Below are positions 3,590-50,919 of a stretch of 64,000 nt of DNA, one piece after another (within the stretch, counting starts at the first letter, position 1; the number at the start of each line of letters is the position of its first letter). The translations under genes and the position numbers were made by a program. The DNA lies in the IMG/VR virus record IMGVR_UViG_3300018065_000011, positions 124,001-188,000 of that record; one strand, written 5' to 3'. Under the pieces are notes generated by a model. That model did no database searches and was not told where the DNA came from. It saw only the letters and a list, made by a program, of their open reading frames with translations. The DNA comes from a virus.

Positions 3590-4190
3590 ACTGCTGTTTC
3601 ATGGGCCTCGGGCTCGCCAGGAGGTCGGACAGCAGCTTCCCCGAATCGGCCGCTGTGTTGGCGGTCCCTTCGGAGAAGAGGGGCTCAAGATCGATGATGC
3701 CCGTTCGATCATCGCGTTGATGCAGTCGGCAACGGTGGGCGATGAACCGGGGGCGTTTATCGTGGGGCCCTTGGACCTGGCACAGCAGAACGCGACGGAC
3801 GTGTTGCTGAAGGTCATCGAGGAATTCGATCCCGAGGTCGTGCGTCCTGTTCTGTGGGCTAACGATTTGGGTGCGATTTCCTCGACCATCCGATCCAGGT
3901 GCATCCACAGATGGTGCCCAGGGCTGGAGGAACACGATGAAGAGATGCTGGCGTTTGCGCTGGATCTGGTGAAGGCGGCTGTAGATAAGGATCGAGCACG
4001 CGCCATCGAATTGCTTCGGGAAACCAAGGCGTCGCCGGGAGACATCATCGATGCCTGTGTGCGTGCGATGTCTCTCGACCCAGATCAGATGAGCGGAAAG
4101 CGCTACATGTTTTGGGAACGGTTGCGGCGGTTAGGTGGTTATCGGTACGTGGGGAAGAATGAGATTCTGGCTGTGTTCGCGGGAGGCTGA
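3573..4190 (+). CDS. holB: DNA polymerase III delta'-like clamp-loader subunit
   Basis: This 205-residue protein has the AAA+ core of a clamp-loader accessory subunit. The opening strand ALLFHGP lacks a working Walker A lysine/threonine. KIDDARSIIALMQ matches the 'VDQIRELI' helix of HolB and DnaX. QNATDVLLKVIEEF corresponds to 'AANALLKTLEEP', and ISSTIRSRC carries the SRC arginine-finger motif. It is shorter than bacterial delta' (about 330 residues) because the collar domain is reduced. Together with HolA at 4458, DnaX at 28727 and the clamp at 24601 it makes a bacterial-type loader. Its GTG start is buried in a hairpin. The gene starts a new unit after a TCTATAG motif. Confidence 0.8.
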   Translation: MRYTSALLFHGPRARQEVGQQLPRIGRCVGGPFGEEGLKIDDARSIIALMQSATVGDEPGAFIVGPLDLAQQNATDVLLKVIEEFDPEVVRPVLWANDLGAISSTIRSRCIHRWCPGLEEHDEEMLAFALDLVKAAVDKDRARAIELLRETKASPGDIIDACVRAMSLDPDQMSGKRYMFWERLRRLGGYRYVGKNEILAVFAGG

Positions 4191-5556: not shown

Positions 5557-8500
5557 ATGCTGCAACAGAGGCTTCCTGACGACTGTGTTCCTGTGCCTTC
5601 TAAGAAGAAGCCAACCAACGGAGCGCGGCCTCCGGGTGAGGCACAGCAAGCGCACGTCGAGGCGGTTCGTCCGACGTATACATTCGCAGAAGTCATGGAG
5701 GCTTCGCTTGCATACTTCGGTGGTGACGAGTTGGCGGCTAACGTGTTCGCCACGAAGTACGCGTTGAAGAACAACGCCAACCAGTATGTCGAGAAAACTC
5801 CTGAGGACATGCATCGTCGGTTAGCGCGCGAATTCGCACGCGCCGAGGCGAAGTATCCCAACTCGCTGTCAGAGGAGGAGATCTTCGATCTCTTCGATCA
5901 CTTTCGCTACGTCGTGCCGCAAGGATCGCCCATGTCAGCGATCGGGAACCCATACAGGTATCAGAGCGCGAGCAACTGCTACGTCGTGCCGCCACCGTAC
6001 GATTCCTACGGTGGAATCTTCGTGACGGACCAGCAGCAGGCACAGATCATGAAGCGTCGTGGTGGTGTCGGTTTCGACATTTCTACGTTGCGTCCGAAAG
6101 GACAGCCGACCACCAACGCAGCCGAGACCACGGATGGCATCGGCGTGTTCATGGAGAGGTACTCGCGAACGTGCAAGGAGGTTGCACAGTGTTTGGCGGC
6201 TGGTACTCTGGTTCTCACGTCTAAAGGACTCAAGCCGATTGAGCGGATTCAACAACGCAGTGACTTGGTGTGGACGGCCGAGGGTTGGAGAAGGGTTGCG
6301 AAGGTACTAAAGAACCGGAAGTCGGTGGTTCAGGTTCGAACGTCTCGCGGATTGGAGGTCTGGGCTTCGGGGGATCATGTGTTTCACAGCATGAGTGGTG
6401 AGATTGCCGTGGGTGAGATGATGGTTGGCGATCCCATTACAAATCTGTTAGGGGAGGGCTGGGAGGGGAGTGCGATTCCGTTGGAACCTCCGTTTATGGG
6501 CATGAGCGGGAACAGGCTGAAGAGGTGGCGTTTTCCTTCCACGCTAACTGCGGAGTTGGCTTATTTGGTTGGGCAGTTTTGTGGGGATGGTTGTGTGGAG
6601 GTAGCTGAGAAAAAGATCACAACAAACCACTGTGTCAGCGTGGCTTTGTCTAACGATTGGCCGGAAGTAACCGAGAAGGTTACAACGCTTGTTGAGCGTG
6701 TCTTTGGGTACTCTGGGCGCCTTAAACCCGGAGATGGGGACCTACAGCGACTGCGGATTTCTTCAGAACAGATCTACTTGTTTTTGACTGTTAATGGTCT
6801 TTTTCAGAGAGAGCCTGAAGTTGCGTTTCCTCAGTGTTTCCTTCGGGCGAAACGGGAAGTCTTGGCTGCTTTCGTTGCTGGATACTTTGATGCGGACGGC
6901 TATGCGTCCGGCTCGAAGAAGGGCTACAGTTTTAGCTCCACTTCTCGGCGTTTCTTGACTACTCTTAAGATTGTTTTGGCCGCGTATGGAATTGCGACGA
7001 GCTGGCATGAAGAGGACAGGTCTGAGAAGGGTTGGAAAACTCTTTATTCGGCCAATGTGGTGGGGGCTTCTAGTCAGCGTCGGTTCATCGAGTTTCTTGG
7101 CGGACAGAGTGTGAAGGTGGCTTCGCTCGGGTTTGTAGCCAAGCGCGATAACGTGTTGTCAATTTTCAATGCTGCTGACTTGGGCGTCCGATATAGCAAG
7201 TTTGCATACTGCCCCGATCCGTCTCACCTTCTTTCGCGAAACACCCTCGATCGTCTTGCTGTAGAGGGTGTTGATATTCCGTCGTGTGCGATGAGAATGT
7301 CCAACGACGAGATTGTACAGGTGGTAGAGGGGGGAGAGGAGGAGACCTACGATCTCGTTCTTGATGACACTCATCTGTTTTTCGCTAACGGATTGTATGC
7401 CCACAACAGCGGTCGGCGCGGCGCTTTGATGATTACGTGCGATGTTCACCACCCCGAAATCATGACGTTCGTTCGCATCAAGAACGAAAAGACAGCGTGT
7501 CGGGCGTGTGGACATGAGGAACGAACGAAGGTTACGCACGCGAACATCAGCGTGCGGCTCTCCGACGAATTCCTGAAGGCAGTCGAGGAGGGCAAGGAGT
7601 ACCATCTCCGCTGGCCGTGTGACGAGAAGGAGAATCCGAAAATCGAGGGGTGGCTGGATGCTCGCGAGGTCTGGGCGGAGATTATGAAGGGGGCTCGCGA
7701 CAGCGCCGAGCCTGGGCTTCTCTTCTGGGACACCATCCTGCGCGAGAGCCCGGCCGACTGCTACGCTGAGGAAGGTTACCGGACGGTCAGCACGAACCCG
7801 TGCATGACGGGAGATACGCTTGTGGCGGTTGCCGACGGTCGCGGATTTGTGTCATTTGAGACCTTGGCGGATGAGGGGTGCGATGTCCCCGTGTACGCGT
7901 GTGGAGAAGAAGGGCGCATTGTCATCAAGATGATGCGGAATCCGGGGATTAGTGGTCGTAAGCCAGTCTACAAGATCAAGCTAGAGGATGGCACGATTTT
8001 CCGTGCGACAAAAGAGCACCAGTTCCTTCTCCGTGCGGGGGTCTACGCTTCAGTAGATGAATTGATGGTGGGGGATAGCCTTCATGTAGGTTATCGGTAC
8101 GAGGCATCCATTAAAGATCGCTGGCCTAAGAGAGATAAACGAGGTCAGGATTACTTGTGGCTGCGAAATTGCAACCGATCCTATTCTCGTGCAGAACATC
8201 GGATGATTTGGGAATTTGCGACTGGGAAAGAAATCCCGAAGCATCACCGATTGCCGCTAAAGAGGAGCTTGGACAGGCGTATTGCTTACGCGAAATCGGT
8301 GACCGATCTTCCGTTGGTTGTCGAGGGTCGTGAAATCTTGGTTCGTAAGACTTGTCCACAGTGCGGCAAGAACTTTTCCTTGCCGCTGACTCGAAGAGGA
8401 CAAGAGTGTTGTAGCAGCGCTTGTCAGAATTCGCGCCGTGCGCGTTTGGAGGGGTTCCGAAAGAAGCATTTACAAGGGGTTCGCACAGGACATCGAAAGC

Positions 8501-10437
8501 GAATGCGTTGTGTTCGCGACGAGCAGCTCAGAGTATTTACAGCAGTGCAATTCCGGTTGGGGCGTGTTCCTTACAGAAGAGAGTGGGAACGGAGCTGCTC
8601 AGAAGAAGGCGTGCCTTTCAATATCCGAAAAAGCAATGTTAACGGCTTTCGGAGCTATGCTGCCCTCAAGGAGGCCGCGCAGAACTATAATCATCGCATT
8701 GTCTCCATTGAGGAAGACGGAACCGCGGATGTGTACAACGGTGCTGTTGATGGGGTAAGCAATTATTATATCGGGGGGGTGGAGTCTCTTTCTAAGTATG
8801 GTAAACCGCAACGGGTTCTCATCAATAGCCATAACTGTGCAGAGATTCCGCTGTCCGCGAACGCAGATTCGTGTCGTCTGCTGGCGCTCAACCTGACGAG
8901 TTTCGTTTCCGATCCGTTCACGGACCAGGCCGCATTCGAGTGGGAGAAATTCCGCCAGGTCGCCAACAAGGCTCAGCGGCTCTTAGACGATCTCGTTGAC
9001 ATCGAGCTAGAGCTAGTGGAGAAGATCCTCGCCAAGATTGACAAGGATCCAGAGCCCGATTGGGTCAAGGCCCCGGAACGAATGTTGTGGGAGGAGACCC
9101 ATAAGGCTGGTCTCACCGGGCGTCGTACTGGCCTGGGGATCACGGGACTTGGCGACACGGTTGCTATGCTCGGGGTTCGCTACGGGACAGATGAGAGCAT
9201 CGAGGTCGTGCGGGAGATCTACAAGGCGTTGGCGGTGGGTTCGTATGAGGCATCTGTAGAGATGGCAGGAGAACGCGGTTGTTTCCCGATCTATAACTAC
9301 GCCAAAGAGAAGGACCATCCCTTCATTCAGCGCATCATGGAGGCGGGCGGTCCTGAGTTGCGGATGCGCTGGGAGCAGAACGGGCGGCGCAATATCGCCA
9401 ATCTCACGACGGCTCCCACGGGGTCCGTTTCGATGATGACCCAGACTACGAGTGGGATTGAGCCTCTCTACAAGGCGCTTTACACGCGCTCAAAGAAGAT
9501 CAATCCCAACGATCAAGGCGCTCGGGTCGATCGCGTCGATAACGAGGGGGTCGCGTGGCAGGACTACACAGTTAGCGAGCACGGGTTCCGCAAGTGGAAG
9601 GAAGTCACCGGCAAGACCGACGATGATTTTGAAGAGAGTCCCTACCACATGGCTGAGGCTGAATCGATGGATTGGCAGCAACGTGTTCGGCTACAGGCGG
9701 CAGCGGGTCAGTACGTTGATCATGCAATCTCCAGCACGTTGAATCTGCCCGAAACCGTCACGGTGGAAGAGGTAGAGAAGATCTACACCGAAGCGTGGAA
9801 GGCGGGGTGCAAGGGCATCACGATCTATCGCGAGGGTAGTAGGGAAGATGCTCCGATCAAGAAGAAGTCGGCGTTTGTGCAGCACAATGCTCCCAAGCGG
9901 CTGGAGAAACTTGCCTGTGACATCCACCGCTCACGGGTCAAGATTGGTGAAAAAGAGTATACCGATTGGATGATTCTCGTTGGTCTGTACGACGGCAAGC
10001 CCTACGAGATCTTCGGTGGCTTCTCGGAAAACATCGAGATCCCGAAGAAGATCACGCAAGGCGTGATTGTCAAGCGGTCTTTCAAGGATGGTGGGAAGTA
10101 CGATCTTTGGTACGGGGATGAGGACGACCCCAACAAGATCAAGAACATCGTGAAGATGTTTGACAACCCGCAGCAAGGGGACTTTACGCGCATCCTCAGC
10201 CTGTCGTTGCGCCACGGTGCTCCTGTTCAATTCATCGCGGAGCAGCTTGGGCGAACGGCCGACGCAGATATGTACGATTTTGCCAAGGTGATTGCCCGCG
10301 TGCTGAAGAAGTACATCGCGGACGGGACCGAGGTTAAGGCCGTGAAGGTCTGCCCTGATTGTGGCGGGAAGGGCACGATGGTCTACCAGGAGAATTGCCC
10401 GCGATGCAGGCAATGTGGTAGCACCAAGTGCGGGTAG
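5557..10437 (+). CDS. nrdJ: Adenosylcobalamin-dependent (class II) ribonucleotide reductase with two inteins
   Basis: The 1626-residue precursor yields an extein of about 875 residues, the size of NrdJ, which makes deoxynucleotides using a B12 radical without oxygen. Signs are SASNCYVVP with the first redox cysteine, the GGVGFDISTLRPKG segment, SGRRGALMITCDVHHPEI, STNP-CAEIPLS holding the N-x-C-x-E thiyl-radical site, and TGLGITGLGD. APTGSVSMM, GCKGITIYREGS and a C-terminal zinc ribbon (CPDCGGKG...CPRCRQCG) follow. Intein 1 (residues 212-617) sits before Ser of SGRRG. Intein 2 (749-1093) sits directly before the catalytic cysteine, so the enzyme cannot work until both are spliced out. The gene follows the first clamp-loader genes and supplies precursors for replication. 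Confidence 0.93.
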   Translation: MLQQRLPDDCVPVPSKKKPTNGARPPGEAQQAHVEAVRPTYTFAEVMEASLAYFGGDELAANVFATKYALKNNANQYVEKTPEDMHRRLAREFARAEAKYPNSLSEEEIFDLFDHFRYVVPQGSPMSAIGNPYRYQSASNCYVVPPPYDSYGGIFVTDQQQAQIMKRRGGVGFDISTLRPKGQPTTNAAETTDGIGVFMERYSRTCKEVAQCLAAGTLVLTSKGLKPIERIQQRSDLVWTAEGWRRVAKVLKNRKSVVQVRTSRGLEVWASGDHVFHSMSGEIAVGEMMVGDPITNLLGEGWEGSAIPLEPPFMGMSGNRLKRWRFPSTLTAELAYLVGQFCGDGCVEVAEKKITTNHCVSVALSNDWPEVTEKVTTLVERVFGYSGRLKPGDGDLQRLRISSEQIYLFLTVNGLFQREPEVAFPQCFLRAKREVLAAFVAGYFDADGYASGSKKGYSFSSTSRRFLTTLKIVLAAYGIATSWHEEDRSEKGWKTLYSANVVGASSQRRFIEFLGGQSVKVASLGFVAKRDNVLSIFNAADLGVRYSKFAYCPDPSHLLSRNTLDRLAVEGVDIPSCAMRMSNDEIVQVVEGGEEETYDLVLDDTHLFFANGLYAHNSGRRGALMITCDVHHPEIMTFVRIKNEKTACRACGHEERTKVTHANISVRLSDEFLKAVEEGKEYHLRWPCDEKENPKIEGWLDAREVWAEIMKGARDSAEPGLLFWDTILRESPADCYAEEGYRTVSTNPCMTGDTLVAVADGRGFVSFETLADEGCDVPVYACGEEGRIVIKMMRNPGISGRKPVYKIKLEDGTIFRATKEHQFLLRAGVYASVDELMVGDSLHVGYRYEASIKDRWPKRDKRGQDYLWLRNCNRSYSRAEHRMIWEFATGKEIPKHHRLPLKRSLDRRIAYAKSVTDLPLVVEGREILVRKTCPQCGKNFSLPLTRRGQECCSSACQNSRRARLEGFRKKHLQGVRTGHRKRMRCVRDEQLRVFTAVQFRLGRVPYRREWERSCSEEGVPFNIRKSNVNGFRSYAALKEAAQNYNHRIVSIEEDGTADVYNGAVDGVSNYYIGGVESLSKYGKPQRVLINSHNCAEIPLSANADSCRLLALNLTSFVSDPFTDQAAFEWEKFRQVANKAQRLLDDLVDIELELVEKILAKIDKDPEPDWVKAPERMLWEETHKAGLTGRRTGLGITGLGDTVAMLGVRYGTDESIEVVREIYKALAVGSYEASVEMAGERGCFPIYNYAKEKDHPFIQRIMEAGGPELRMRWEQNGRRNIANLTTAPTGSVSMMTQTTSGIEPLYKALYTRSKKINPNDQGARVDRVDNEGVAWQDYTVSEHGFRKWKEVTGKTDDDFEESPYHMAEAESMDWQQRVRLQAAAGQYVDHAISSTLNLPETVTVEEVEKIYTEAWKAGCKGITIYREGSREDAPIKKKSAFVQHNAPKRLEKLACDIHRSRVKIGEKEYTDWMILVGLYDGKPYEIFGGFSENIEIPKKITQGVIVKRSFKDGGKYDLWYGDEDDPNKIKNIVKMFDNPQQGDFTRILSLSLRHGAPVQFIAEQLGRTADADMYDFAKVIARVLKKYIADGTEVKAVKVCPDCGGKGTMVYQENCPRCRQCGSTKCG
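6190..7407 (+). mobile_element. Intein 1 in NrdJ (LAGLIDADG type, 406 residues)
   Basis: It begins CLAAGTLVLTSKG (block A) and ends YAHN before Ser+1. Block B is ASGDH. The two LAGLIDADG helices are YLVGQFCGDG and FVAGYFDADG, both with the catalytic acidic residue, so the homing endonuclease looks intact. Block F/G is TYDLVLDDTHLFFANGLYAHN in outline. It splices by Cys1, terminal Asn and Ser+1. Its DNA looks more T-rich than the surrounding extein, which fits horizontal arrival. Confidence 0.92.
7801..8835 (+). mobile_element. Intein 2 in NrdJ (HNH-like, 345 residues) at the catalytic cysteine
   Basis: It begins CMTGDTLVAVADG and ends INSHN before Cys+1, which is the thiyl-radical cysteine of NrdJ. 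Block B is TKEH. There is no LAGLIDADG motif. Instead RAEHRMIWEFATGKEIPKHH resembles a worn HNH core. A CPQC...CCSSAC zinc finger follows, then LGRVPYRREWE...FRSYAALKEAA, which matches the homing-endonuclease-associated HNH repeat. Whether the nuclease still cuts is uncertain; the splicing residues are intact. Confidence 0.88.
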
Positions 10438-11261: not shown

Positions 11262-14200
11262 ATGACGGAGTACTACACAGGCCGAGTCCATTCGGTCATC
11301 TTTGAGAACGCAGGGCAAGCGTTCTACATTCTCAAGATCAAGATCGATGATGCGGATGATGCTGGTCCGGCCAGCCGCAGCTTCAGGCGTGAGAGGGATG
11401 ATCCAGCAGAGGACTATTCTCCCCTTGCCGGAGCGCTGGTGACAATTCGAGGCAACATCCCCGGTCTGAATGTGGATGTCGGTACGTGGTTTGGGTTTGA
11501 AGGCAAATGGGTCAAGCACCCGGAGTACGGACGCCAGATCGAGATCACGCGCGCCCCTGTCATCCGAGGTCCCTGGACGGTCTCCACGATCAAGAAGATC
11601 CTGAGCGCGCACGGAGTGGGTCGTCTGACTCTTCAGATATTGTCCGACCACTTCGGCGACGAGATGGAAACCGCTCTTGGAGATGCCGAGCGGCTGCAAG
11701 AGGTTCGAGGCATCGATCAGTTGTCAGCCGAGCACATCGTTTCGCGGTGGCAAGCGGTCAAGGCGATGTTCCAGGCACTCAGCTTCCTGAGCGAGTTTGA
11801 TTTGCCGAAGGTGAAGATTGATCGGGTGTGGAGCCTGTTTGGAGATCGCGTGGAGCAGGTGCTCGCGGAGGATCCGTGGAGTCTTGTTCAGATCGACGGG
11901 ATCGAATTCAAGCAGGCAGACGAGATTGCCATGCGCATGGGGCTGTCGTTGGATTCGGACAAGAGGATTCGAGGCGCAGTGCTTCACATGGTGAAGAGTC
12001 GGCGGGGGATGGGGCATCTGTACATGCTTTCGGGTGATCTCTTTGCTGCGGTCAAGGAGATCATTCCCAATGTGACGACCGAGCAAATCGCTCACACGCT
12101 CAAGGCGTGTCACCAGGAAGGCGCGGTCACCCTCGACCGCAAGACCAAGCCCGGAACGGTAGCCATCTACGAGCCGTGGCCGTTTCTGATCGAGGATGAG
12201 TCGGCAAAGCTCCTGGTAGAGAGGATGGAGCGCGCGCAGATCTGCGGAGAGGACATTCAGGAATACACCAAGAGGCTAGGAGAGGTTGGAGTCAAAACCG
12301 CCGAGCACGCAAAAGAGAACCCGCTGGATCTTGAGGGCACTGCGAAGCTAGCTCTGGACGAATGGACGGGCGGAAGCAAGGTGTCGCTGGAGCGCCTTCA
12401 GATGCAAGCGGCCCTCAATGCGCTTATTCATCCGGTTTCCATCATTACGGGGTCACCTGGAACGGGAAAGACGTTTTGTCTGCGGACGGTCGTGAGGGTT
12501 TTGCAAGACGCAGGGGTGTCGTTCTTGCTCGTTGCGCCCACGGGGATTGCTGCCAAACGTGTCCAGTCTGTTACGGGCTCGGAGGCGTCCACGATTCACA
12601 GGGCATTTCAGGCACGTGGGATTGATGGGGAGGACGATCGCGAGTCTACATACGCGGGCATCGTCGGGACCAGCGAAGGAGCGTCGGGCGACGGGTCTGG
12701 AGAGCTTTGGGGCTACGATGAAGGATCGCCCCATCCTGCCGAAGTGCTCATTGTGGACGAGTCCTCGATGGTTGATCAGCACTTGCTGTACCGGATCCTG
12801 TCTTGCACGCAGAAGAAGTGTCGCATCGTGTTCGTGGGAGATGCGGCGCAGCTTCCCCCGGTAGGCCCCGGCAACGTGCTGCGGGACATGATTGCTACCG
12901 AGTTGTTTCCCGTGACGAGACTGACAGAGATCTATCGTCAGGAGGACACGTCGGACATCGTTCTGGCAGCGCACGCGATCAACAGCGGCGAGATCCCACA
13001 ACCGACTCCAGGCAAGACGGACTTTGCTCTGTTTGAGATCCAGACAGAAGAGAAGGTGCTGGAGACGTTGCTGGCTACCGTCATGAAACTCTATGACAAG
13101 CACGCCAACTTCCAGGTGCTCAGCCCACGTCATGCTGGGACTCTCGGAGTCACGAACCTGAATTCGCGTATCCGGGGTTTGCTCAACCCCAAACAGCCAG
13201 GTCTGCGAGAGATGCGGTTGGGGGCGGAGACGGTTCGTGAAGGTGATCGGGTGATGGTGGTCAAGAACAACTATCAGTACGATATCTTCAACGGCGACGT
13301 GGGTAAGATTGTGCGTCTGGACCGGAAGAAGAAAGAAGTCAAGATCAGGATTTGGGGACCGCCAGAGACGGAGGTTTTCCTCCCGTTCCGCACGGCATCC
13401 TCACATCTCCGACTGGCTTACGCGATCACGTGTCACAAATGTCTCCACCCCGACACTTTGGTGGAGACAACCAAAGGGCTTCTTCCGATTGCTTCATTGC
13501 CGGGGGCGGGAATGGTTGGTGCGCCAGGAGGCCCGAGGGCCTACGAACGGAAGGTCGTCAACCCAGAAGCTCCGATGCTGAAAATCACGACCAAAGACGG
13601 CTACTCCGTCAGCGTTACTCCAGACCATGGCTTGGATGTTTGGGATGCTGAGACGGAAACCTATGAGCGGAAGGTGGCTCAGGGGATCAAGATCGGGGAT
13701 TTTCTGCGATTGCGAATGCGGCCGGAGCTAGATGCCATTGAGCCGGCCGTGTTACCGTCTCCTCCGCAAGAGACGGACGTTCGGACTCGGTTGTATTCGG
13801 TCCCGTCTGTACTCAACAACAGCGGCGCGGAGTTTTTGGGGTTGTTTGTGGCTGACGGTACGCTTTCCCCCGCAGGGTTTCGTTTGGCCAAGAGGCACCG
13901 AGAAGTGGTGGATCGGTTTGCTGAGCTTTGTCGGGAGCTATTTGGTGTGGAAGCGTCGCGATTCCACGAATTGGGAGCGTACCATGCCGAGGTAAGCTCC
14001 GTTTTCCTATCCCAATGGTTGTCCCGACTTGGTGGGTTGCTGCCGCACGCGAAGGATGTTCCTTCTTGTGTCTTGCAGTCTCCGGTGGAGGTTCAGCGGT
14101 GGTTTCTACGTGGGTTGTTTGAGGATGGGTCGGTGCATCTTCGTTCGGGTGACCCTACGAAACTCGATCACATTGAGCTGGCCAGTAAGTTTGCAGGAGT

Positions 14201-14906
14201 GCGGGAGAAGGTTCGGGTGCTTCTTTTGCGTATGGGTATCATTGCTGGAAGAACAACGAGCCGCACCCCTTCTCTTCAGCTTTACGGCGTTAATGCCAGA
14301 AAGTTCGGTGAGGAAATTGGTTTCATCACACGTGAGAAGCAAGAGAGGGCGAGATTGGCGGTGGGGCCGGAGCGCTATGTTTTTCCGTGTAGCAGGAGGT
14401 TAGTCAAGGCTCTGCGTGCAGAGTTGGGGTCTCGGGTTCCGTTGCCGGTGTATCGGAATGGCATCAATAGGGGGTGTATCAGCCGACATGCAGCCGCCGA
14501 GATCTTGAAGTACTCGACAGGGACACAGGCCCAGCGGGAGTTGGCTTCGTTTTTGGAGGACCACCATAGTGTGGTGGCGTCGGTTGAGCCTTGCGTCTCT
14601 TCTTCTGTCTGTGTCGAAGTGCCGGACGGGCATCGTTTTCTACAAAATGGGTTTTACGGGTGGAACAGCCAGGGCCAGGAGTACGATGTCATTCTGATGC
14701 CCTGGGTCAGCGGTTTCCGGCGTCAGCTACAGCGCAACCTCATCTATACGGCAATTACGCGGGCTCGCCGGAAGGTCTGCCTTTTTGGGCACCCCACGGC
14801 GTTGGCGCGGGCTGTGGGGAACAGGGAGGTCGATACGCGGAACACGCTCTTCCCTGACCGGCTAATTGCGCTCGCTGGGTGCTCAAGTGAGGCGGCCGAG
14901 GCGTAA
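11262..14906 (+). CDS. recD2: RecD2-like SF1B helicase with an intein
   Basis: The precursor of 1214 residues gives an 805-residue helicase, as in RecD2. The N-terminus has the family's OB-like region (VTIRGNIPGL...GTWFGFEGKWVKHPEYGRQIEI). Helix-hairpin-helix repeats follow around residues 100-220. The motor has Walker A GSPGTGKT (about 397-404), motif Ia APTGIAAKR, Walker B VLIVDESS, motif III GDAAQLPP, motif IV QVLSPRH, motif V ITCHK-SQGQEYD and motif VI YTAITRARR. It moves 5'-3' on DNA in known relatives. The intein interrupts motif V between HK and SQG, a site essential for DNA-coupled ATP hydrolysis. It lies upstream of RuvC, RecA and SbcCD genes, so a role in recombination-linked replication is likely. 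Confidence 0.9.
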   Translation: MTEYYTGRVHSVIFENAGQAFYILKIKIDDADDAGPASRSFRRERDDPAEDYSPLAGALVTIRGNIPGLNVDVGTWFGFEGKWVKHPEYGRQIEITRAPVIRGPWTVSTIKKILSAHGVGRLTLQILSDHFGDEMETALGDAERLQEVRGIDQLSAEHIVSRWQAVKAMFQALSFLSEFDLPKVKIDRVWSLFGDRVEQVLAEDPWSLVQIDGIEFKQADEIAMRMGLSLDSDKRIRGAVLHMVKSRRGMGHLYMLSGDLFAAVKEIIPNVTTEQIAHTLKACHQEGAVTLDRKTKPGTVAIYEPWPFLIEDESAKLLVERMERAQICGEDIQEYTKRLGEVGVKTAEHAKENPLDLEGTAKLALDEWTGGSKVSLERLQMQAALNALIHPVSIITGSPGTGKTFCLRTVVRVLQDAGVSFLLVAPTGIAAKRVQSVTGSEASTIHRAFQARGIDGEDDRESTYAGIVGTSEGASGDGSGELWGYDEGSPHPAEVLIVDESSMVDQHLLYRILSCTQKKCRIVFVGDAAQLPPVGPGNVLRDMIATELFPVTRLTEIYRQEDTSDIVLAAHAINSGEIPQPTPGKTDFALFEIQTEEKVLETLLATVMKLYDKHANFQVLSPRHAGTLGVTNLNSRIRGLLNPKQPGLREMRLGAETVREGDRVMVVKNNYQYDIFNGDVGKIVRLDRKKKEVKIRIWGPPETEVFLPFRTASSHLRLAYAITCHKCLHPDTLVETTKGLLPIASLPGAGMVGAPGGPRAYERKVVNPEAPMLKITTKDGYSVSVTPDHGLDVWDAETETYERKVAQGIKIGDFLRLRMRPELDAIEPAVLPSPPQETDVRTRLYSVPSVLNNSGAEFLGLFVADGTLSPAGFRLAKRHREVVDRFAELCRELFGVEASRFHELGAYHAEVSSVFLSQWLSRLGGLLPHAKDVPSCVLQSPVEVQRWFLRGLFEDGSVHLRSGDPTKLDHIELASKFAGVREKVRVLLLRMGIIAGRTTSRTPSLQLYGVNARKFGEEIGFITREKQERARLAVGPERYVFPCSRRLVKALRAELGSRVPLPVYRNGINRGCISRHAAAEILKYSTGTQAQRELASFLEDHHSVVASVEPCVSSSVCVEVPDGHRFLQNGFYGWNSQGQEYDVILMPWVSGFRRQLQRNLIYTAITRARRKVCLFGHPTALARAVGNREVDTRNTLFPDRLIALAGCSSEAAEA
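13440..14666 (+). mobile_element. Intein in helicase motif V (LAGLIDADG type, 409 residues)
   Basis: It starts CLHPDTLVETTKG and ends FYGWN before Ser+1. Note that the penultimate residue is Trp rather than the usual His. Block B is TPDH. LAGLIDADG motifs are FLGLFVADG and FLRGLFEDG. Residues 727-1135 of the precursor. Splicing restores HKSQG. Confidence 0.9.
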
Positions 14907-28607: not shown

Positions 28608-28730
28608 ATGCATCAGCACGCGATCCCGGCGGAAGAAGTGATCGCCACAGACGGGTATACAGATGGGTTTCATGATGGGGTAGCTTGGGTGCTACGTCGC
28701 GTAGAGGAGACCACACGGCCGGAAGGATGA
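28608..28730 (+). CDS. Tiny protein between metallopeptidase-like gene and dnaX
   Basis: This is a 40-residue frame: MHQHAIPAEEVIATDGYTDG, then FHDGVAWVLRRVEETTRPEG. The Shine-Dalgarno signal is a long GGAGGAGGAGGAG run just upstream, and its stop overlaps the dnaX start (ATGA). It neatly fills the gap between two genes, so I think it is real. Function unknown. Confidence 0.55.
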   Translation: MHQHAIPAEEVIATDGYTDGFHDGVAWVLRRVEETTRPEG

Positions 28731-29425
28731 GTCTCGATACCAAATACAGGCCAATGAAGTACAAGGAAGTGCTCGGGCAAGAAGGCACTGTCGCGGTGCT
28801 GCGCCAATTCGTGAGCACGGGACATGGGTTCTGTCAGAGCTACCTCTTCGGCGGTCCGTTTGGCGCAGGAAAGACGACCCTTGCTCGCATTCTCGCCCGA
28901 GCGTTGCTGTGTGCTAATCCTCAGAAGGGGGAGCCATGTGACGAGTGTCATTCGTGCAAGGTGATGCTCGACAAGCCCGGCTCGCACGAGTGCTTCATCG
29001 AAGTTGATGCCGCCACCAACAGTGGCAAAGCGGACGTTGCCAAGCTTATCCAAGATCTGGACTATTCGACGTTCTCGGGCAAGCAGAAGATCTATCTCTT
29101 CGATGAGTGCTTTACTGAGGACACGATGCTTTTGACGCCGGACGGCGCGCGGAGCATCAAAGACCTTGTGGAAGAGAGATACATGGGTTTGGTTGCCTCG
29201 CTAGATCCGGTTACTGGTGACCATTGTTGGAGGCCGGTTACTGATTGGCATGACATCGAAGATGAACGCGACTGTGTGATGTTGGAATTTGATAATGGTG
29301 TTGTGTTAACTGTTACGACCGACCAGGAGATATTCACGAGGAATCGAGGATGGGTTGCCGCTTCGGACTTGACGGATGGCGATGATGTTTGCGAAGCCGC
29401 TAATGCGTCGTTTGCTCGACGCTGA
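28727..29425 (+). CDS. dnaX: DnaX (clamp-loader ATPase) N-terminal part fused to a split-intein N-fragment
   Basis: This is a 232-residue protein. Residues 1-127 are the DnaX N-extein: SLDTKYRPMKYKEVLGQE, Walker A GGPFGAGKTTLA, a zinc module CANPQKGEPCDECHSC, then KQKIYLFDE, the start of Walker B. Residues 128-232 are an intein N-fragment (CFTEDTMLLTPDG...). The frame then stops, a homing-endonuclease gene follows, and the rest of DnaX is at 30495. Active DnaX can form only if the two products find each other and splice, giving FDE-CHELS. The start is ATG 28727, overlapping the preceding stop; the upstream ATG at 28685 is inside the small gene. Confidence 0.9.
   Translation: MSLDTKYRPMKYKEVLGQEGTVAVLRQFVSTGHGFCQSYLFGGPFGAGKTTLARILARALLCANPQKGEPCDECHSCKVMLDKPGSHECFIEVDAATNSGKADVAKLIQDLDYSTFSGKQKIYLFDECFTEDTMLLTPDGARSIKDLVEERYMGLVASLDPVTGDHCWRPVTDWHDIEDERDCVMLEFDNGVVLTVTTDQEIFTRNRGWVAASDLTDGDDVCEAANASFARR
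29108..29422 (+). mobile_element. Split intein N-fragment in DnaX (105 residues)
   Basis: It begins with Cys1 (CFTEDTMLLTPDGARSIKDL). NGVVLTVTTDQEIFT is the block B region, where the usual TxxH histidine is replaced by Gln (codon 29324-29326). GWVAASDLTDGDDV follows as in other inteins. It ends at a TGA before the homing-endonuclease gene. Confidence 0.88.
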
Positions 29426-29434
29426 GGTCGTGAT

Positions 29435-30502
29435 ATGTTGGATGCGATGACAAAAAATCCCCATCCAAGAGGAAGTGACGCCTATTGGGAGAGACGTTTG
29501 GAGCTTCTGCTGCGGCGAGGAAAGTTGTGTGCTTGTGGTTGTGCTGAGCCAATTCGAGTTAGTTTGGAGTGGCTCAAAGCGCAAGGCGCCCAGCGCAATG
29601 TATGGCTACCTAAATATCGTCCGGGGCATGCTCCGCTTATTTCTTGCGCTTGCGGGTGTGGAGAATTGATCGAGGCTGTTGATGAGCGAGGACAACCTAG
29701 AAAGGTACGGGATCGACAACACGCCGCTCGCATGACTCCGGGTCCGGTGGTGGATTGGGAGAAACGAGCGGCTGAATGGAATGCTCGGGCGCCCCTTTGC
29801 GCTTGTGGGTGTGGGTTGCGTCTTCACCGAACGCCGGATCAGATGCGTGCTCGTTTGCCGGATGCGAAGCATTACCCAGGACATGCACATCGTCGGTCGG
29901 GGTTACAGAGGCTTAACTCGATAGAGCGCAGCGTGGTTCTTGGTGTGCTTTTGGGTGATGTGTCAATTTCTGTGCCGTGTAAAACACCGCGTTTGCAATT
30001 CACGCATGGGATTTCTCAACGTGAGTACACACTACACAAGATCCGAGTGTTAGAGCGATTGTCTTGGTGGTGGCAAGAGACGCAGACAAGCGGATACACA
30101 GACAATCTTGGAATTCAAGCCTCCTCCTCTTGCGCGGTAGCCTTGGGGGAGATCTACGAGCTTGTCCGGCCCGGTGGCGGCCCAAAGCGGGTCACCGGCC
30201 GATGGCTAGATGAGATCGATGACAGAGCTTTGGCGTACTGGTTCATGGATGACGGATCGGTTTCTTTCAGTAACAAAAAGCTGTCTCACGCAGCTTTTCA
30301 CACTGAAGCCTTTTCGGAGCAGGAACATGATTTGATGGTTGGGTGGTTTCGTAGTCGTGGCTATCTTCAGGTAGTCAAGGCTAAGGCTCGGGGGTATTGG
30401 TATCTGTATGTTCCTCGGAGCGACGCTGAAAGCCTGGTCAAAGCTGTTCGGCCTTTCGTTCCTGATTCGATGCGGTACAAGGTGAGGTGCGCTTGTGGCT
30501 AG
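29435..30502 (+). CDS. Free-standing LAGLIDADG homing endonuclease inside the split intein
   Basis: This is a 355-residue protein; its ATG follows GAGG by about 7 bases. Two LAGLIDADG-type helices are seen: SVVLGVLLGDVSI and ALAYWFMDDGSVS, the second with the YWFMDDG form of single-chain DNA endonucleases. The N-terminal part has three CACGCG-type clusters (residues 32-36, about 70-75 and about 121-126), likely zinc-binding knuckles that help DNA recognition. It would cut DnaX genes lacking the insertion and so spread the fractured arrangement. It overlaps the next gene by 8 bases. Confidence 0.88.
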   Translation: MLDAMTKNPHPRGSDAYWERRLELLLRRGKLCACGCAEPIRVSLEWLKAQGAQRNVWLPKYRPGHAPLISCACGCGELIEAVDERGQPRKVRDRQHAARMTPGPVVDWEKRAAEWNARAPLCACGCGLRLHRTPDQMRARLPDAKHYPGHAHRRSGLQRLNSIERSVVLGVLLGDVSISVPCKTPRLQFTHGISQREYTLHKIRVLERLSWWWQETQTSGYTDNLGIQASSSCAVALGEIYELVRPGGGPKRVTGRWLDEIDDRALAYWFMDDGSVSFSNKKLSHAAFHTEAFSEQEHDLMVGWFRSRGYLQVVKAKARGYWYLYVPRSDAESLVKAVRPFVPDSMRYKVRCACG

Positions 30503-30623
30503 GCTCGTGCGACGAATCCTCGCGGGGAAGAGGAAGGTTTATGATGTTGCTGTTGCTGGCAGCCATGCTTTCTTCGCCTATTCACGTGAGGGTAACGGTT
30601 GTCATGCTGTCCTGGCTCACAAC
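30495..30623 (+). mobile_element. Split intein C-fragment in DnaX (43 residues)
   Basis: MARLVRRILAGKRKVYDVAV, then AGSHAFFAYSREGNGCHAVLAHN. Block F is VYDVAVAGSHAFFA, block G is VLAHN with the final Asn and preceding His, and Cys+1 follows. The size matches known natural split inteins. Confidence 0.9.
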
Positions 30624-31694
30624 TGCCATGAGCTAAGTCGTCAAGCATTCGACGCCATGCTTCTGCCGATGGAGGACAACCGGCCCAACAGCCAGGACAA
30701 GAAGCTCGTGTGCATCTTCGCGACGACGGAGCCCGAGAAGATGCGACCGGCTGTCCTGTCCCGCTGCGCTCCCGCCTTCATCATCCGACCCTGCGCGCCT
30801 GCGCAGATCGCGGAGCGGCTGGGGCAGATCTGCACCGCTGAAGAGATCCCTCACCAGCCAGAGGCCCTGATGCTCATAGCCGAGGCCACGGAGTGCCACA
30901 TCCGAGACGCCATCAAGGCTGTCGAGGGGGTCTCGATGGTCGGGGATGTGAGTCCTGAGAGCGTCCGCTCGTATCTCCAGATGGACGCCAATCCGATCTA
31001 CCTGGAGGTTCTGGAGAACATCGGAAAGGACCAGAAAGCCCTCCTGGAAGCCATAGAGCGGCTTTTGCAGCACGTCGCCCCGGCCACTGCCTACGACAAC
31101 CTGGCCGAGTTGGCAATGTTGGCATATCGGTTGGCAAATTTGGGAGTAGGAACCGTACCTTCATTTTTGGACAAGGACAAACTCAAAGAAGTCGGAGATC
31201 GCCATGGGGCATTTCTGATTGAAGCCGGGTCGAGATTTGCGAAGCGTCCGGGCCGGGTTTCGTCTGCAATGCTGCGTTGTGATTTGGCTGCACTTCATCA
31301 ATTGGCGACTGGAGCGGTAGCCACGATCGTGCAGACCGAGACTCCTGTTGCCGTGCAGCCCACCGTGAGTGAAGGTTCTTCCGAGCCGAAAATCGTAGCT
31401 CCGCCTGCACCGAAAAAGACCGAAGATGCACCTTCCCCGTCCCCTGAAAAACCTTTACCGGACCCGGCTCCTGAGGAGCAGGCTGGTATTGTAGAGGGGT
31501 ACGTGACTTCCACGGGTGTGTTTTGTGATCCACGTGCTGCACGTTCTAACCGGCAAGGCGCTCCGCAAGATGGTTCTCGCCAATCCTCTACTCTGTCTCC
31601 CGAAGACTTTGCGCAGCGTTTGGATGAACGGCTGCGGGAGTTGATTGACGAGAATGGGAGATCAGAGGGACCGGGTTACCTGGGTGGCTCTTGA
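30495..31694 (+). CDS. dnaX: Split-intein C-fragment fused to DnaX C-terminal part
   Basis: This 399-residue protein has a GTG start. Residues 1-43 are the intein C-fragment. The DnaX C-extein starts at Cys44: CHELSRQAFDAMLLPMED completes Walker B (FDE-CHELS), CIFATTEPEKM is sensor 1, VLSRCAPAFI has the SRC arginine finger, and the lid and collar follow. A Pro/Ser/Glu-rich linker (about 265-340) and a small C-terminal helix resemble a tau-type tail. After splicing DnaX would be 127 + 356 = 483 residues, similar to bacterial gamma. Confidence 0.9.
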   Translation: MARLVRRILAGKRKVYDVAVAGSHAFFAYSREGNGCHAVLAHNCHELSRQAFDAMLLPMEDNRPNSQDKKLVCIFATTEPEKMRPAVLSRCAPAFIIRPCAPAQIAERLGQICTAEEIPHQPEALMLIAEATECHIRDAIKAVEGVSMVGDVSPESVRSYLQMDANPIYLEVLENIGKDQKALLEAIERLLQHVAPATAYDNLAELAMLAYRLANLGVGTVPSFLDKDKLKEVGDRHGAFLIEAGSRFAKRPGRVSSAMLRCDLAALHQLATGAVATIVQTETPVAVQPTVSEGSSEPKIVAPPAPKKTEDAPSPSPEKPLPDPAPEEQAGIVEGYVTSTGVFCDPRAARSNRQGAPQDGSRQSSTLSPEDFAQRLDERLRELIDENGRSEGPGYLGGS

Positions 31695-47451: not shown

Positions 47452-50400
47452 GTGGCGTCTCCAAGGAAACGCGTTCGCGCTCGGACATGCCTGCGGGTGA
47501 CCCCCAAGCGACGGGTCATCGCGGGATCAGCGGATGTTCCGACCAACGGAGATGCTCAACTCGTGGGCCGAGTACCCACGCGGACAGACCGGCGAGAGGA
47601 GCTATCGGTAGGTAAGCCGCAGCCTCTCATTCGTGGCTCGATGAGGTCGAAGATCGCTACGTGTGGTGGGTCGGCTTTCAGCGGCTACGGAGGAGCCGGC
47701 GGCGTAGGAGGCATAGGTGTTTCTGGCGGCGGTTCGGGTGTTGGGTCGGCGGGATCATCCACGCTCGGAAGTGGTGGCAACTTCTATTCGCCCGAGCTAT
47801 CCACCGATTTCCTTGAGCTACCGCAGAGCCTAGACGAGCAGCGAAACTACTTCCGGTTCTTCTACCGGGCTGATCCGTTTGTTGGTCAGGCCATCGATCT
47901 ACACACGGAGCTACCGCTGTCCAAGATTCGTCTCGGTCGCCCCGAGGCCAAGAGCAAGGAGCTTGGCGATCAGTCATTGGACTTCATCAAACGTTGGTGC
48001 AAGAACATCGGGTTGTTGCATCGGCTGATCGAGATCGTTCACGAGTACAACCTCCTTGGTGAGGTCTTCATCTTCTTTGAGGACCGCAACCCGGAGATGC
48101 CCGAGGATATCCGTGTCGAGCGGAAGTATGTCTTGCCGGATGAGGAGGGTGCGGAGCTGATCGAGCAAGCCGAGGAGCGCGACAACGCGGACGAGCGCGC
48201 TGCCGACTGGATGCAGGCAAACTACGAAGGATGGACGGCGATCCGCGTGCTTCCGCCGGAGCAGATTCATCTTGAGGGCTTTCCCTTTACGGATGAGAAA
48301 CTCATCGAGCTAATCCCTGACTCCAAGACCAAGGCCATCATCGAGATGGCTGGCAACGGCGACGAACGAGCCAAAGAGATTGTGGAGTCGATGCCTGCGG
48401 ATGTCGTGAGTGCGGTTACGGATGGCAAGAACATCCCGCTCAACACGAATCCGAAGGCAGGGTCGTTCTGCTACTACATGGCGAACAAGCGCAGCCAGTA
48501 CGAGCCCCGCGGGCACTCTCGTCTGGAGCGCTGCATTCGCACGCTCGTCTATAAGGACAAGTGTCTGCTTCCGGGCTGCTTGGTTTGGGTGAGGAGAAAG
48601 GGTATCCCGCAGCAGGTCCGAGTAGAGACGATTCAAGACGGGGAATTCTTACTTACGCACAAGGGGAGATTTCGCAAGGCTATAACCGGGTCTCGGGAAA
48701 TTGAAGAAGATATTGTTGCTCTGGCGGTGGAGGGAATCCGGCGTCCGCTTTGTGTGACGAGGGATCATCGAGTGTTGGTTGTGGAGGATGGTGTTGAGCG
48801 ATGGATCGAAGCAGGTGAGTTGAGGCCGGGGCAGCAGCTTTGCGAGCCTTCGATTGATAACGGGGATAGGCGGAGGACGTTTGATCTTAGAAAGTGGTGG
48901 GGCAATCGTCATTTTGCGGTCCAACGAAGAAGTCTTTGCGGGGGGGAGACTTGTATTGTGGACCGTCACTTGAGTGTTTGTGAGGTAAGCGAAGAGGACA
49001 ACACTCTATATGTAACATTTAGTTTTCCGCAGGATCATGTCAATCGTGTCGGGGCCGTACAAGGAATGAGGAAATTGCTAGAATGGCTCAGAGATTTGGA
49101 GAGACCTACTCAGGTTTCTTACAAGGCTCTTTCTGAGGTTACTGGCATTTCTCCTGTTCGCTTAAGGAACTACGCGTTTACACTAAGAAAGCGTTTGGGT
49201 CTGCGGATGGATACAACTCCAGTAGGGGCAGGTCCGCGCAAGACTACGTGGCATCCCGCGCCCCCAGACGCCGAGGTTCCTGATGAGACTCAGTATCATA
49301 CGTTGGCTTCGGGTCTTTGCGAAGTTCCTCTGACGGAAGACGTGTGTTATTTGCTTGGTGCTTTTTTGGGTGATGGGGCAATATGGCACAGCGATTGTAG
49401 ATTTCTCAATACCTGCTATGTTGAGTGGTCGTTCGGCGGCGACGCCATTTCGTTAAAAGTACGAGATCGGATCGCCCGCATTGCAGGAGATTTGATCAGC
49501 GATGAGAATCTGCATTTTACCCCTGTAATGGGGGAATACGACACGGAGAGTGCGATTCATTATGTTCGTGTTGAGGATGAATTGTTTGCACGATGGGTAG
49601 CCGAGGAGATGGGCGTTGACTGCTATACTAAGCGGTTGCCTTTTTGGGTGTTTGAGCTAGCAGATGAACAAATCAAGGCGTTGCTGTGTGGCCTACTTGA
49701 TACGGACGGATCGTTGAAGGTTGGATTGCCTTCTAACGATAAAACTGTCGAGATCTCTGTTGAGTTGGCAAACGCTACATTAATTGATCAGTTACATCTC
49801 TTGTGCAATCGTGTGGGGCTTGTGTCGTATGTTGGGCAATGCACGAGGTCTGCAACTTCGATAACGCGCCGCTGGAAAACAAAATCCGGGATGCGGGAGA
49901 AGACATACACGTACCCGGAGGCAACATATTATTCGCTGAGAAGCACAGATTATTCTAGTGTTAGGGAGTGGAGTAGGGGTTCAGTTAAGGGAGAAGAAAC
50001 AGAGTGGGTTGAGCGAAAGTATACTTGGCGTTCGCGGTTTGATCATAATAGGCTGACTCGAAGAATCACTGGAGTGGAGAGAATTCCATACACGGGTACG
50101 GTGTATTCGTTTGATGTAGAAGAAGATGAGTCGCATACAGGCGGTGGATTGCTTTTGCATAACTGTCGGCAAGCCCAGACATCGATCGCATCGCGTCATA
50201 TGACTCCAATTCGCCTGGTCTACGCTGAGAATATGAACCAAGCGCAGACCGAGGCCCTCCGAGATCAGATCGATCTGGCGCTGCAAGATCCCGACTACAG
50301 CATCGTCACCAACTTCCAGGTGACGTGGGAAGAGATGACACCGCAGGGTCGTCTCTTGGAGCTTTCGGGAGAGTACGAGCTAATCAACCGGGAGCTTTAC

Positions 50401-50919
50401 GCGGGGCTCGGGGTCACGGAGTCGTTGCTGTCTGGCGAGTCGAGCTACAGTGGCGACCGCATCAATCTGGAGGTCATCAACGTCCGCTACATGCTCATGC
50501 GTGAGATCGTTCAAGATCTCATCGAGGAGTATTGCTTCAAGCCCATGTGCGCGAGGATGGGCTTCATCGAGACCGTCAATGGCAGGGATCAGGTCGTCTA
50601 TCCGAAGCTGAGCTTTACTCGGCTTGCGCTTCGGGACAATCAGGACACCTACGACGCACTCTACAACCTCTACTCGAAAGGCTCGATCCCGGTTTCGACC
50701 ATTCTGGACCTTCTCAACATCGATCCAGAGTCGGCGGCGGAGGAGTTGGAGCGCGACTTCGCGACCTTCCAAGACGCGACGTTCAACGAGGTTCTCCGCG
50801 GTGCCTACTCCAGCGTGGGAACCAAGCTGGCTGACGATACCGACTTCACGGAGATGATCGCCAAGCGGCTTGGGCTCAAGTACGAGCCGAAGGAGGAAGG
50901 CGGCGGAGGACGGTTCTAG
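47452..50919 (+). CDS. Portal protein with an intein
   Basis: The 1155-residue precursor has an extein of 621 residues. The first 60 residues are basic and unlike a portal; a later start (ATG 47641) is possible. A Gly/Ser-rich stretch is followed by a typical portal core: ELPQSLDEQRNYFRFFYRAD, PFVGQAIDLHTELPLSKI, a stem region, then RHMTPIRLVYAENMNQAQTE and NRELYAGLGVTESLLSGESS with INLEVINVRYMLMREIVQDL. It forms the ring through which TerL moves DNA. The intein (residues 371-904) sits between KDK and Cys of CRQAQTS, in the stem/clip region, so unspliced protein cannot assemble. Confidence 0.85.
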   Translation: MASPRKRVRARTCLRVTPKRRVIAGSADVPTNGDAQLVGRVPTRTDRREELSVGKPQPLIRGSMRSKIATCGGSAFSGYGGAGGVGGIGVSGGGSGVGSAGSSTLGSGGNFYSPELSTDFLELPQSLDEQRNYFRFFYRADPFVGQAIDLHTELPLSKIRLGRPEAKSKELGDQSLDFIKRWCKNIGLLHRLIEIVHEYNLLGEVFIFFEDRNPEMPEDIRVERKYVLPDEEGAELIEQAEERDNADERAADWMQANYEGWTAIRVLPPEQIHLEGFPFTDEKLIELIPDSKTKAIIEMAGNGDERAKEIVESMPADVVSAVTDGKNIPLNTNPKAGSFCYYMANKRSQYEPRGHSRLERCIRTLVYKDKCLLPGCLVWVRRKGIPQQVRVETIQDGEFLLTHKGRFRKAITGSREIEEDIVALAVEGIRRPLCVTRDHRVLVVEDGVERWIEAGELRPGQQLCEPSIDNGDRRRTFDLRKWWGNRHFAVQRRSLCGGETCIVDRHLSVCEVSEEDNTLYVTFSFPQDHVNRVGAVQGMRKLLEWLRDLERPTQVSYKALSEVTGISPVRLRNYAFTLRKRLGLRMDTTPVGAGPRKTTWHPAPPDAEVPDETQYHTLASGLCEVPLTEDVCYLLGAFLGDGAIWHSDCRFLNTCYVEWSFGGDAISLKVRDRIARIAGDLISDENLHFTPVMGEYDTESAIHYVRVEDELFARWVAEEMGVDCYTKRLPFWVFELADEQIKALLCGLLDTDGSLKVGLPSNDKTVEISVELANATLIDQLHLLCNRVGLVSYVGQCTRSATSITRRWKTKSGMREKTYTYPEATYYSLRSTDYSSVREWSRGSVKGEETEWVERKYTWRSRFDHNRLTRRITGVERIPYTGTVYSFDVEEDESHTGGGLLLHNCRQAQTSIASRHMTPIRLVYAENMNQAQTEALRDQIDLALQDPDYSIVTNFQVTWEEMTPQGRLLELSGEYELINRELYAGLGVTESLLSGESSYSGDRINLEVINVRYMLMREIVQDLIEEYCFKPMCARMGFIETVNGRDQVVYPKLSFTRLALRDNQDTYDALYNLYSKGSIPVSTILDLLNIDPESAAEELERDFATFQDATFNEVLRGAYSSVGTKLADDTDFTEMIAKRLGLKYEPKEEGGGGRF
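48562..50163 (+). mobile_element. Intein in the portal protein (LAGLIDADG type, 534 residues)
   Basis: It starts CLLPGCLVWVRRKG and ends GGLLLHN before Cys+1. Block B is CVTRDH. LAGLIDADG motifs are YLLGAFLGDG and LLCGLLDTDG. It is the longest intein here; extra sequence around residues 85-250 includes a possible DNA-binding helix-turn-helix (YKALSEVTGISPVRLRNYAF). Its DNA is visibly more AT-rich than the extein, indicating recent transfer. Confidence 0.92.

Follow-up and report, generated by a model that had tools for sequence, protein, structure and literature searches.

How does a phage replication gene stay in use when it is broken within its ATPase motif, and can such a break be undone? 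The question is raised by the dnaX locus of a huge bacteriophage, in a stretch of 64,000 bases (bases 124001-188000 of the 372,162-base IMG/VR virus record IMGVR_UViG_3300018065_000011), the whole of which is called the window here. Three consecutive plus-strand genes at 28727-31694 encode the first part of the clamp-loader ATPase DnaX running into the first part of an intein (the N-gene, 232 residues), a nuclease (355 residues), and the rest of the intein followed by the rest of DnaX (the C-gene, 399 residues). This arrangement of two dnaX genes with complementary intein halves and a nuclease gene between them is confirmed, and all coordinates of an earlier note on this DNA hold: the N-gene stop at 29425, the nuclease gene at 29435-30502, and an intein fragment of 43 residues in the C-gene. 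The best reading, supported by sequence comparison, is that a split intein has fractured dnaX and that the gene between the two halves encodes a LAGLIDADG homing endonuclease. The parts of the locus are listed below with the E-values of profile matches; labels beginning with L denote related loci.

28727..29107, plus strand: N-extein, DnaX residues 1-127, from Walker A (GPFGAGKTT) into Walker B, of which it has the first half (LFDE); TIGR02397 7.5e-34, Pfam DNA_pol3_delta2 1.9e-15
29108..29422, plus strand: N-intein, 105 residues, CFTEDT...NASFARR; conserved in five further contigs, matched by phrog_16259, block B placed by alignment
29424..29427, plus strand: Shine-Dalgarno-like GAGG overlapping the N-gene stop, 7 bases 5' of the nuclease ATG; from sequence
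29435..30502, plus strand: free-standing nuclease gene, 355 residues, with three C-x-C-G-C knuckles and LAGLIDADG_2; PF03161 6.8e-20
29927..30427, plus strand: LAGLIDADG_2 domain (Pfam) with acidic motifs LGVLLGD and AYWFMDDG; D175, D272 and D273 invariant
30484..30487, plus strand: Shine-Dalgarno-like GAGG within the nuclease gene, 7 bases 5' of the C-gene GTG; from sequence
30495..30623, plus strand: C-intein, 43 residues, VARLVRR...VLAHN, from the GTG start; start region (M/V/L)ARL common to the C-genes of L004, L005 and L011
30624..31694, plus strand: C-extein, the rest of DnaX: CHELS, which completes Walker B, then the lid domain and the remainder up to the stop; TIGR02397 3.7e-22, PF22608 DnaX lid 2.2e-6

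The N-gene (28727-29425) opens with ATG at 28727, crosses the junction FDE/CFTEDT at 29107/29108 and ends in TGA at 29423-29425, while the C-gene (30495-31694) opens with GTG, its residues 1-43 finishing in VLAHN directly before CHELS, and stops at 31694. The NCBIfam DnaX model TIGR02397 is matched over positions 4-127 by the N-gene and 125-286 by the C-gene, and each half alone scores below the model's 250-bit cut-off, as expected of fragments. The halves meet at Walker B, FDE/CHELS, in agreement with the earlier note's identification of this motif, and the 483 residues it gave for the joined N-extein and C-extein are recovered from both genes. Walker A, Walker B, the lid and similarity to the N-terminal DnaX model, which mark a protein as DnaX, are all present. 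The nuclease open reading frame (ORF) overlaps the C-gene by 8 bases in a different frame and shares the frame of the N-gene, from which a single TGA separates it. Third-position G+C content is 0.51-0.53 in the N-intein, nuclease and C-intein, as against 0.69 and 0.63 in the exteins, a contrast that fits a cassette.

Further records of the fractured locus

Over 12,696 bases, record L001 (497 kb) is identical to the window and record L002 (87 kb) differs from it by one mismatch, and the order of N-gene, nuclease and C-gene recurs in two divergent contigs, L004 and L005 (N-gene identity 57% and 62%), and as a remnant in a third, L011. That the three-gene order is known here from assembled records alone might suggest an assembly or sequencing artefact, but with three IMG/VR records agreeing to within one base and the arrangement found again in divergent contigs, such an artefact is exceedingly improbable. 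A lack of homologous fractured loci, which the earlier note had named as a ground for doubt, is excluded, DnaX being split in L004, L005 and L011 also. A continuous intein frame is present in the related phages L003 and L006, which have no nuclease gene at the site.

The intervening nuclease

C-x-C-G-C knuckles stand at nuclease residues 32, 71 and 122 (the three CACGCG-type knuckles of the earlier note, two reading CACGCG and one CACGCA), and are followed at residues 165-331 by LAGLIDADG_2, the sole Pfam match of this protein above cut-off. The knuckle part has no Pfam match above cut-off, and AlphaFold2 confidence is low there. Against solved structures, a profile of three relatives matches I-WcaI (6x1j) with an E-value of 4.7e-22 and I-SceI with about 2e-13, and an AlphaFold2 model of the nuclease (predicted local distance difference test score, pLDDT, 78; predicted template modelling score, pTM, 0.59) matches 6x1j with 3.3e-15 and I-SceI with 2.1e-14, the template modelling scores by target being 0.77 and 0.79. 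D175, D272 and D273 are invariant across 23 aligned sequences, the window included. An I-SceI-type enzyme is marked by the fold of I-SceI and by a pair of LAGLIDADG motifs that carry acidic residues; the window nuclease has these, the fold being that of a predicted model. By profile and model, then, the nuclease is an I-SceI-like LAGLIDADG_2 protein behind CxCGC knuckles, its predicted activity being site-specific cleavage of the allele without the cassette. It resembles I-SceI and I-WcaI in the sequence profile and predicted fold of its LAGLIDADG part and differs in its setting, since those enzymes are intron-encoded whereas this one lies between intein halves and carries an N-terminal knuckle array.

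Free-standing nuclease genes lie between the dnaX halves in the window, L004 and L005, the latter two proteins being 47% and 42% identical to that of the window and carrying four knuckles each. Fractured genes with split inteins, in which a gene is broken at a conserved site with a free-standing nuclease gene between the pieces, were reportedly described by Dassa and colleagues in 2009, and the nuclease family introduced there is said to be Vsr-like. The window shares with those genes the broken gene, the N-intein ending one gene, the C-intein starting the next, and the nuclease between; it differs in its DnaX host and in its nuclease, which is not Vsr-like. We take the kind of nuclease to be a variable rather than defining trait, because, of the 18 related loci considered below, 4 have the Vsr-like kind (DUF559/MTES_1575) while 6 match GIY-YIG and/or NUMOD3, and the polymerase locus of phage MIJ3, also discussed below, has an HNH enzyme.

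Intein halves and predicted splicing

The residues of a class 1 intein, Cys1, the C-terminal HN and Cys+1, are present in the window, L003, L004, L005 and L011, and block F is kept in the window alongside them; the L006 intein finishes in SN, not HN. By alignment, block B reads TTDQ in the window and L003, TTNQ in L005 and TLGQ in L011, so that the TxxH of class 1 inteins is absent from these four, as against TREH in L004 and TSNH in L006, whose histidine aligns with that of TxxH in the Mtu RecA intein. Passages of a paper on the Ssp DnaB intein describe the block-B histidine as essential in many inteins and mention a very small subset without it, in which another residue compensates (PMC6333167). 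Among solved chains, the L003 contiguous intein is best matched by the NrdJ-1 intein (5.7e-5), and that of L006 matches Mtu RecA (4.7e-7) and a cyanobacterial DnaX mini-intein (6.1e-6). Residues 120-223 of the window N-gene are matched by phrog_16259, annotated as a DNA helicase, at positions 225-328 of its 330 (5.8e-9); a match by the last positions of that family hints that other phage genes finish in the same intein half.

The two genes have complementary intein halves at one conserved junction, the hallmark of a fractured gene. In every compared intein pair, N-intein and C-intein alike, the third codon position differs most; between L005 and L011 the differences at the three positions are 0.22/0.13/0.55 in the N-intein and 0.15/0.09/0.65 in the C-intein. 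By this measure both halves of the intein are conserved as protein, and in the L005-L011 comparison this is still so after the nuclease has decayed. Searches of six records (that of L004 left out) found one dnaX in each, as one N and one C match, with weak clamp-loader-like matches besides it in four. A PolIII alpha subunit was not found in these six records, which may be incomplete. A weak DnaX-model match at 3687-3908 of the window (2.2e-4, model 98-170) is perhaps a second clamp-loader subunit.

We infer that the intein halves of the window splice in trans and that clamp loading depends on it; if the phage requires a clamp loader, then it would also require splicing. Alternatively the halves might not splice, DnaX acting as a two-chain protein (as is said of nrdA in phage Aeh1) or being dead. 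The glutamine in block B of the window would suit this, splicing being a prediction, but the retention of Cys1, block F, HN and Cys+1, the third-position bias in all intein pairs and both halves, the position of the break within Walker B, and the fact that the fractured dnaX is the only one found in the record make the alternative unlikely.

Translation of the three genes

On passing from the N-gene to the nuclease, and again from the nuclease to the C-gene, the frame changes by 0 and then +1 in the window, by +1 each time in L004 and L011, and by -1 each time in L005, and the N-genes stop with TGA (window), TAG (L004 and L005) and TAA (L011); three frame-step patterns and differing stops make a conserved frameshift or readthrough unlikely. 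Shine-Dalgarno-like cores precede 4 of 4 C-gene starts and 2 of the 3 nuclease starts tested, against a background of 123 of 696 start-like triplets in these regions. These patterns suggest that the three genes are translated by re-initiation. One long precursor, made by stop-codon readthrough and frameshifting and amounting to a contiguous intein with an internal nuclease domain, would draw on the single TGA between the in-frame N-gene and nuclease of the window, and contiguous inteins with an in-frame nuclease of the same family do seem, by eye, to exist (L094, L095, L098, L106). With the variation of stops and frame steps across the four loci, the cores at all C-gene starts, and no tRNA found in the window, we regard such a precursor as very unlikely. 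In those four nuclease relatives, intein-like sequence lies upstream in frame, apparently forming contiguous inteins with an I-SceI-like domain.

Four states of one dnaX junction

IMG/VR was searched with three dnaX alignments or proteins and one nuclease query, two of these searches being represented by the best 80 of 89 and the best 80 of 102 confirmed stretches. Among the matches listed, the dnaX queries gave at least 165 locus records, 158 with both exteins and seven with a single extein, which were set aside; in 139 of the 158 the exteins abut exactly, with a gap of 0. As several records share a contig, the 160 records with near-complete halves, among them the window and the loci from the nuclease query, were thinned to 85: any sequence more than 97% identical to one kept earlier was dropped, only sequences of equal length being compared.

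At the junction FDE/C these 85 sequences present four states. Seventy-nine are empty; three are split with a nuclease (the window, L004 and L005); two carry contiguous mini-inteins with no nuclease gene (L003, gap 462 bases; L006, gap 501 bases); and in one, L011, a nuclease remnant lies between the split halves. The N-gene of L011 stops with TAA at 5681, the last ~88 nuclease residues survive as an open frame, and the C-gene runs from TTG at 5960. The remnant differs from L005 by 0.47/0.36/0.69 per codon position, not clearly different from the 0.51/0.36/0.61 that separate the intact nucleases of L004 and L005 over the same stretch. That the L011 intein halves were held after most of the nuclease was lost suggests, from this one contig, that a gene can stay split once its nuclease has gone. 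Other parts of dnaX are more conserved as DNA than the junction, 91 of 809 windows along the gene scoring higher.

Mobility and inheritance

Each of the six intein alleles has an empty allele as its closest neighbour in the extein tree, at tree distances of 0.29 to 1.36. Residue +1 is Cys in all six intein alleles, whereas the 79 empties have Ser (40), Ala (27) or Cys (12). All seven nearest empties of L004, L005, L006 and L011 have Ser or Ala, and the simplest reading is that the Cys codon of these alleles arrived with the intein or was selected by it. Empties with Cys+1 were also considered as scars of lost inteins and the idea was rejected, as 99.9% of 5000 random draws of empties lie as near or nearer to intein alleles. 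A co-conversion test, comparing extein identity near and far from the junction, was suggestive in 1 of 15 pairs (L005-L011, where 2.9%, 1.1% and 3.5% of comparable pairs are as alike in three near segments) and is not relied on.

Relatives of the intein and the direction of change

An IMG/VR search with the N-intein alignment gave 60 loci, 53 of them not DnaX. Thirty-six of these were examined (17 left out), and after seven near-duplicates had been dropped 29 were classified, a few near-duplicates remaining (L299/L300). Counting as fractured a relative whose N-gene stops no more than 39 residues after the N-intein match, 25 of the 29 qualify and four continue, which extends homologous fractured loci beyond DnaX. 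A profile search of genome contigs with the same alignment returned five pattern matches and no relative. A downstream C-intein was obtainable for 19 of the 29. Pfam assigns the 18 intervening ORFs scanned to DUF559/MTES_1575 (four), GIY-YIG and/or NUMOD3 (six), a TnsA-like family (one) and an intein pair (one), with six unmatched, and finds LAGLIDADG in none. At L271:4001-6500 the ORF between N-gene and C-gene matches the intein-splicing domain twice, as if two split inteins cut the gene into three. L278:4001-5700 and L299:4001-5800 are apparently fractured with no frame of more than 75 codons between the halves, and are candidates for split inteins that outlive their nuclease.

In a tree of N- plus C-inteins, the 19 outgroup rows of which had all been selected as split, the six DnaX inteins stand apart from the others (support 99) and cluster with four fractured genes whose junctions read K(W/I)DG/C, ligases by our reading (support 75). 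In the midpoint-rooted N-intein tree with contiguous forms, a split DnaX ancestor needs 6 steps versus 8 for a contiguous one at equal costs, and 12 versus 13 at a 2:1 cost; by the equal-cost result, the contiguous L003 and L006 would be re-fused. Weighting split-to-contiguous change at 3:1 reverses the preference (split 18, contiguous 15). The contiguous branches measure 0.40 and 0.41, those of their split sisters 0.18 and 0.17.

A second line of evidence comes from L273, a reductase by our reading, whose contiguous mini-intein has halves 99.0% (287/290 bases) and 99.1% (110/111) identical to those of the split L275 and L277; over its first 900 bases the C-extein is 71% identical to theirs and 74% identical to that of L279. 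About 780 bases are missing, among them the N-gene stop and almost the whole intervening gene, which in the split relatives matches NUMOD3 above and GIY-YIG below cut-off. The former C-gene ATG lies in frame within the fused intein, and the bases ahead of it resemble the intervening gene's 3' end. The split L270, L272 and L275 have in common an N-gene tail, KN(Y/F)HE, that is absent from L273, a distribution that polarises the change. L273 looks like a direct re-fusion after loss of the nuclease gene; its contig ends exactly at the first base of the intein, so the N-extein is outside the contig and an assembly effect is possible. When L273:1-420 is set against split L275:3062-4270, L277, L279 and L280, both intein halves are 98-99% identical.

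In DnaX, a search of the contiguous linkers for a trace of the nuclease, with the 42-base segment ending before the start-codon position, found none in eight comparisons. With a wider segment the L003 linker was found to share 12 bases, GGAAACTGCTTT, at nearly the same place, with the end of the nuclease and start of the C-gene in L011; this one hit in eight comparisons has P 0.0006 by shuffling before correction and is post hoc, the first test having failed. None of 150 segments inside nuclease genes scores as high. The L006 linker has no significant trace, with the wider segment likewise. We regard GGAAACTGCTTT as a weak trace of re-fusion in L003.

These results bear on a forward-only history, in which the ancestor carried a contiguous mini-intein and dnaX was fractured on three occasions by a nuclease gene entering the intein's loop, once each in the window, in L004 and in the ancestor of L005/L011, L003 and L006 never having had one. 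As nuclease genes home, repeated insertion at one point would be easy; the first linker test found nothing, L006 and three of the four L003 linker comparisons lack a significant trace, and the 3:1 weighting prefers a contiguous ancestor. Set against this are the cheaper split ancestor at the two lower weightings, the predominance of fractured genes among the classified relatives, the shared GGAAACTGCTTT, and the re-fused appearance of L273 in another gene, and we consider a forward-only history credible if somewhat improbable. That the fracture is reversible seems to us an evenly balanced proposition: the split, nuclease-bearing state would be ancestral for the intein family, the contiguous L003, L006 and L273 would derive from it by nuclease deletion and re-fusion, and genes would cycle from empty to split with nuclease, split with ruined nuclease, contiguous, and empty again.

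A proposed life cycle of the fractured dnaX

As a whole explanation, a fractured dnaX rejoined by trans-splicing, with a homing nuclease, decay and re-fusion, appears probable. The three genes would be translated in succession by re-initiation, and the intein halves would associate and splice in trans to yield a 483-residue clamp-loader ATPase. The nuclease would cut dnaX alleles without the cassette (or without the nuclease), and repair would copy the cassette in, Cys+1 codon included. Once target alleles were exhausted the nuclease would decay, as L011 suggests, and dnaX would remain in two pieces, because only trans-splicing would restore DnaX. The return path, an in-frame deletion or replacement fusing the halves into a contiguous mini-intein (L003, L006), is the least certain step.

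Several observations besides the 3:1 parsimony result and the glutamine in block B of the window, L003, L005 and L011 weigh against this explanation. The six inteins pair up broadly as the exteins do in their tree, and identities of N-extein and N-intein are close (61 and 67% for window-L003, 78 and 67% for L004-L006, 72 and 72% for L005-L011), so vertical inheritance with many losses is possible. Four of the seven nearest empties of the window, and likewise of L003, have Cys at +1, so there the residue may predate the intein. The window nuclease has three knuckles, lacking by alignment the first of its relatives' set, and might be impaired. A Shine-Dalgarno-like core is missing before the window N-gene start and the L005 nuclease start. 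An AlphaFold2 model of the L003 mini-intein, built on two sequences, was unusable (pLDDT 38.8) and was not used.

Other inteins of the same phage

The phage seems, from its domain matches, to be rich in inteins. In the window, 5557-10437 is a 1626-residue ORF for the large subunit of ribonucleotide reductase, which also matches LAGLIDADG_3 and, in two stretches, the intein-splicing domain, and so apparently holds more than one contiguous intein; 11262-14906 encodes a 1214-residue RecD2-like helicase with LAGLIDADG_3 and an intein-splicing match below cut-off; and the sole Pfam match of the 1155-residue ORF at 47452-50919 is an intein splicing domain at E 0.01, below cut-off. Beyond the window, G000:C1:189134-190726 and 195109-197492 hold more intein-splicing matches in a 1371-residue frame and two further LAGLIDADG nuclease frames.

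Known systems and significance

The closest published parallel within the open-access literature is the PolB gene of Pseudomonas jumbo phage MIJ3, for which passages of the report describe a putative split intein with an HNH-family nuclease ORF between the gene halves, resembling a mini-intein in PolB of Salicola phage SCTP-2 (PMC6892783). This is the same pairing of contiguous and split forms as in the DnaX group; the host gene and nuclease family differ, and those passages hold no analysis of empty alleles, remnants or polarity. The NrdJ-1 split intein (PDB 8ubs), the best solved match of L003, has by its name a ribonucleotide reductase host. Inteins in DnaX itself are known from Ssp DnaX and the Spl DnaX mini-intein (7cfv, the cyanobacterial match of L006), and in the passages of PMC3443213 Ssp DnaX is split by engineering only. 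Among the titles and abstracts listed by open-access searches on split inteins, fractured genes, DnaX inteins, homing endonucleases and clamp loaders, none reports a fracture of DnaX by a split intein; the earlier note, too, knew of no established DnaX example with this nuclease type. Fractured genes with split inteins are a known kind; what is new, as far as open-access searches reach, is DnaX as the host, the type of nuclease and the series of four states at one site.

Single loci are a poor basis for arguing how split inteins originate and whether they can revert. At the dnaX junction four states are seen in related phages, which lets broken genes be watched coming and going and makes the order of events and the dependence on the nuclease testable by trees and bench assays. 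The group also adds to the natural split inteins available, some of the new ones lacking the histidine that usually takes part in catalysis, and for the phages that carry them the arrangement would place the clamp-loader ATPase under the control of protein splicing.

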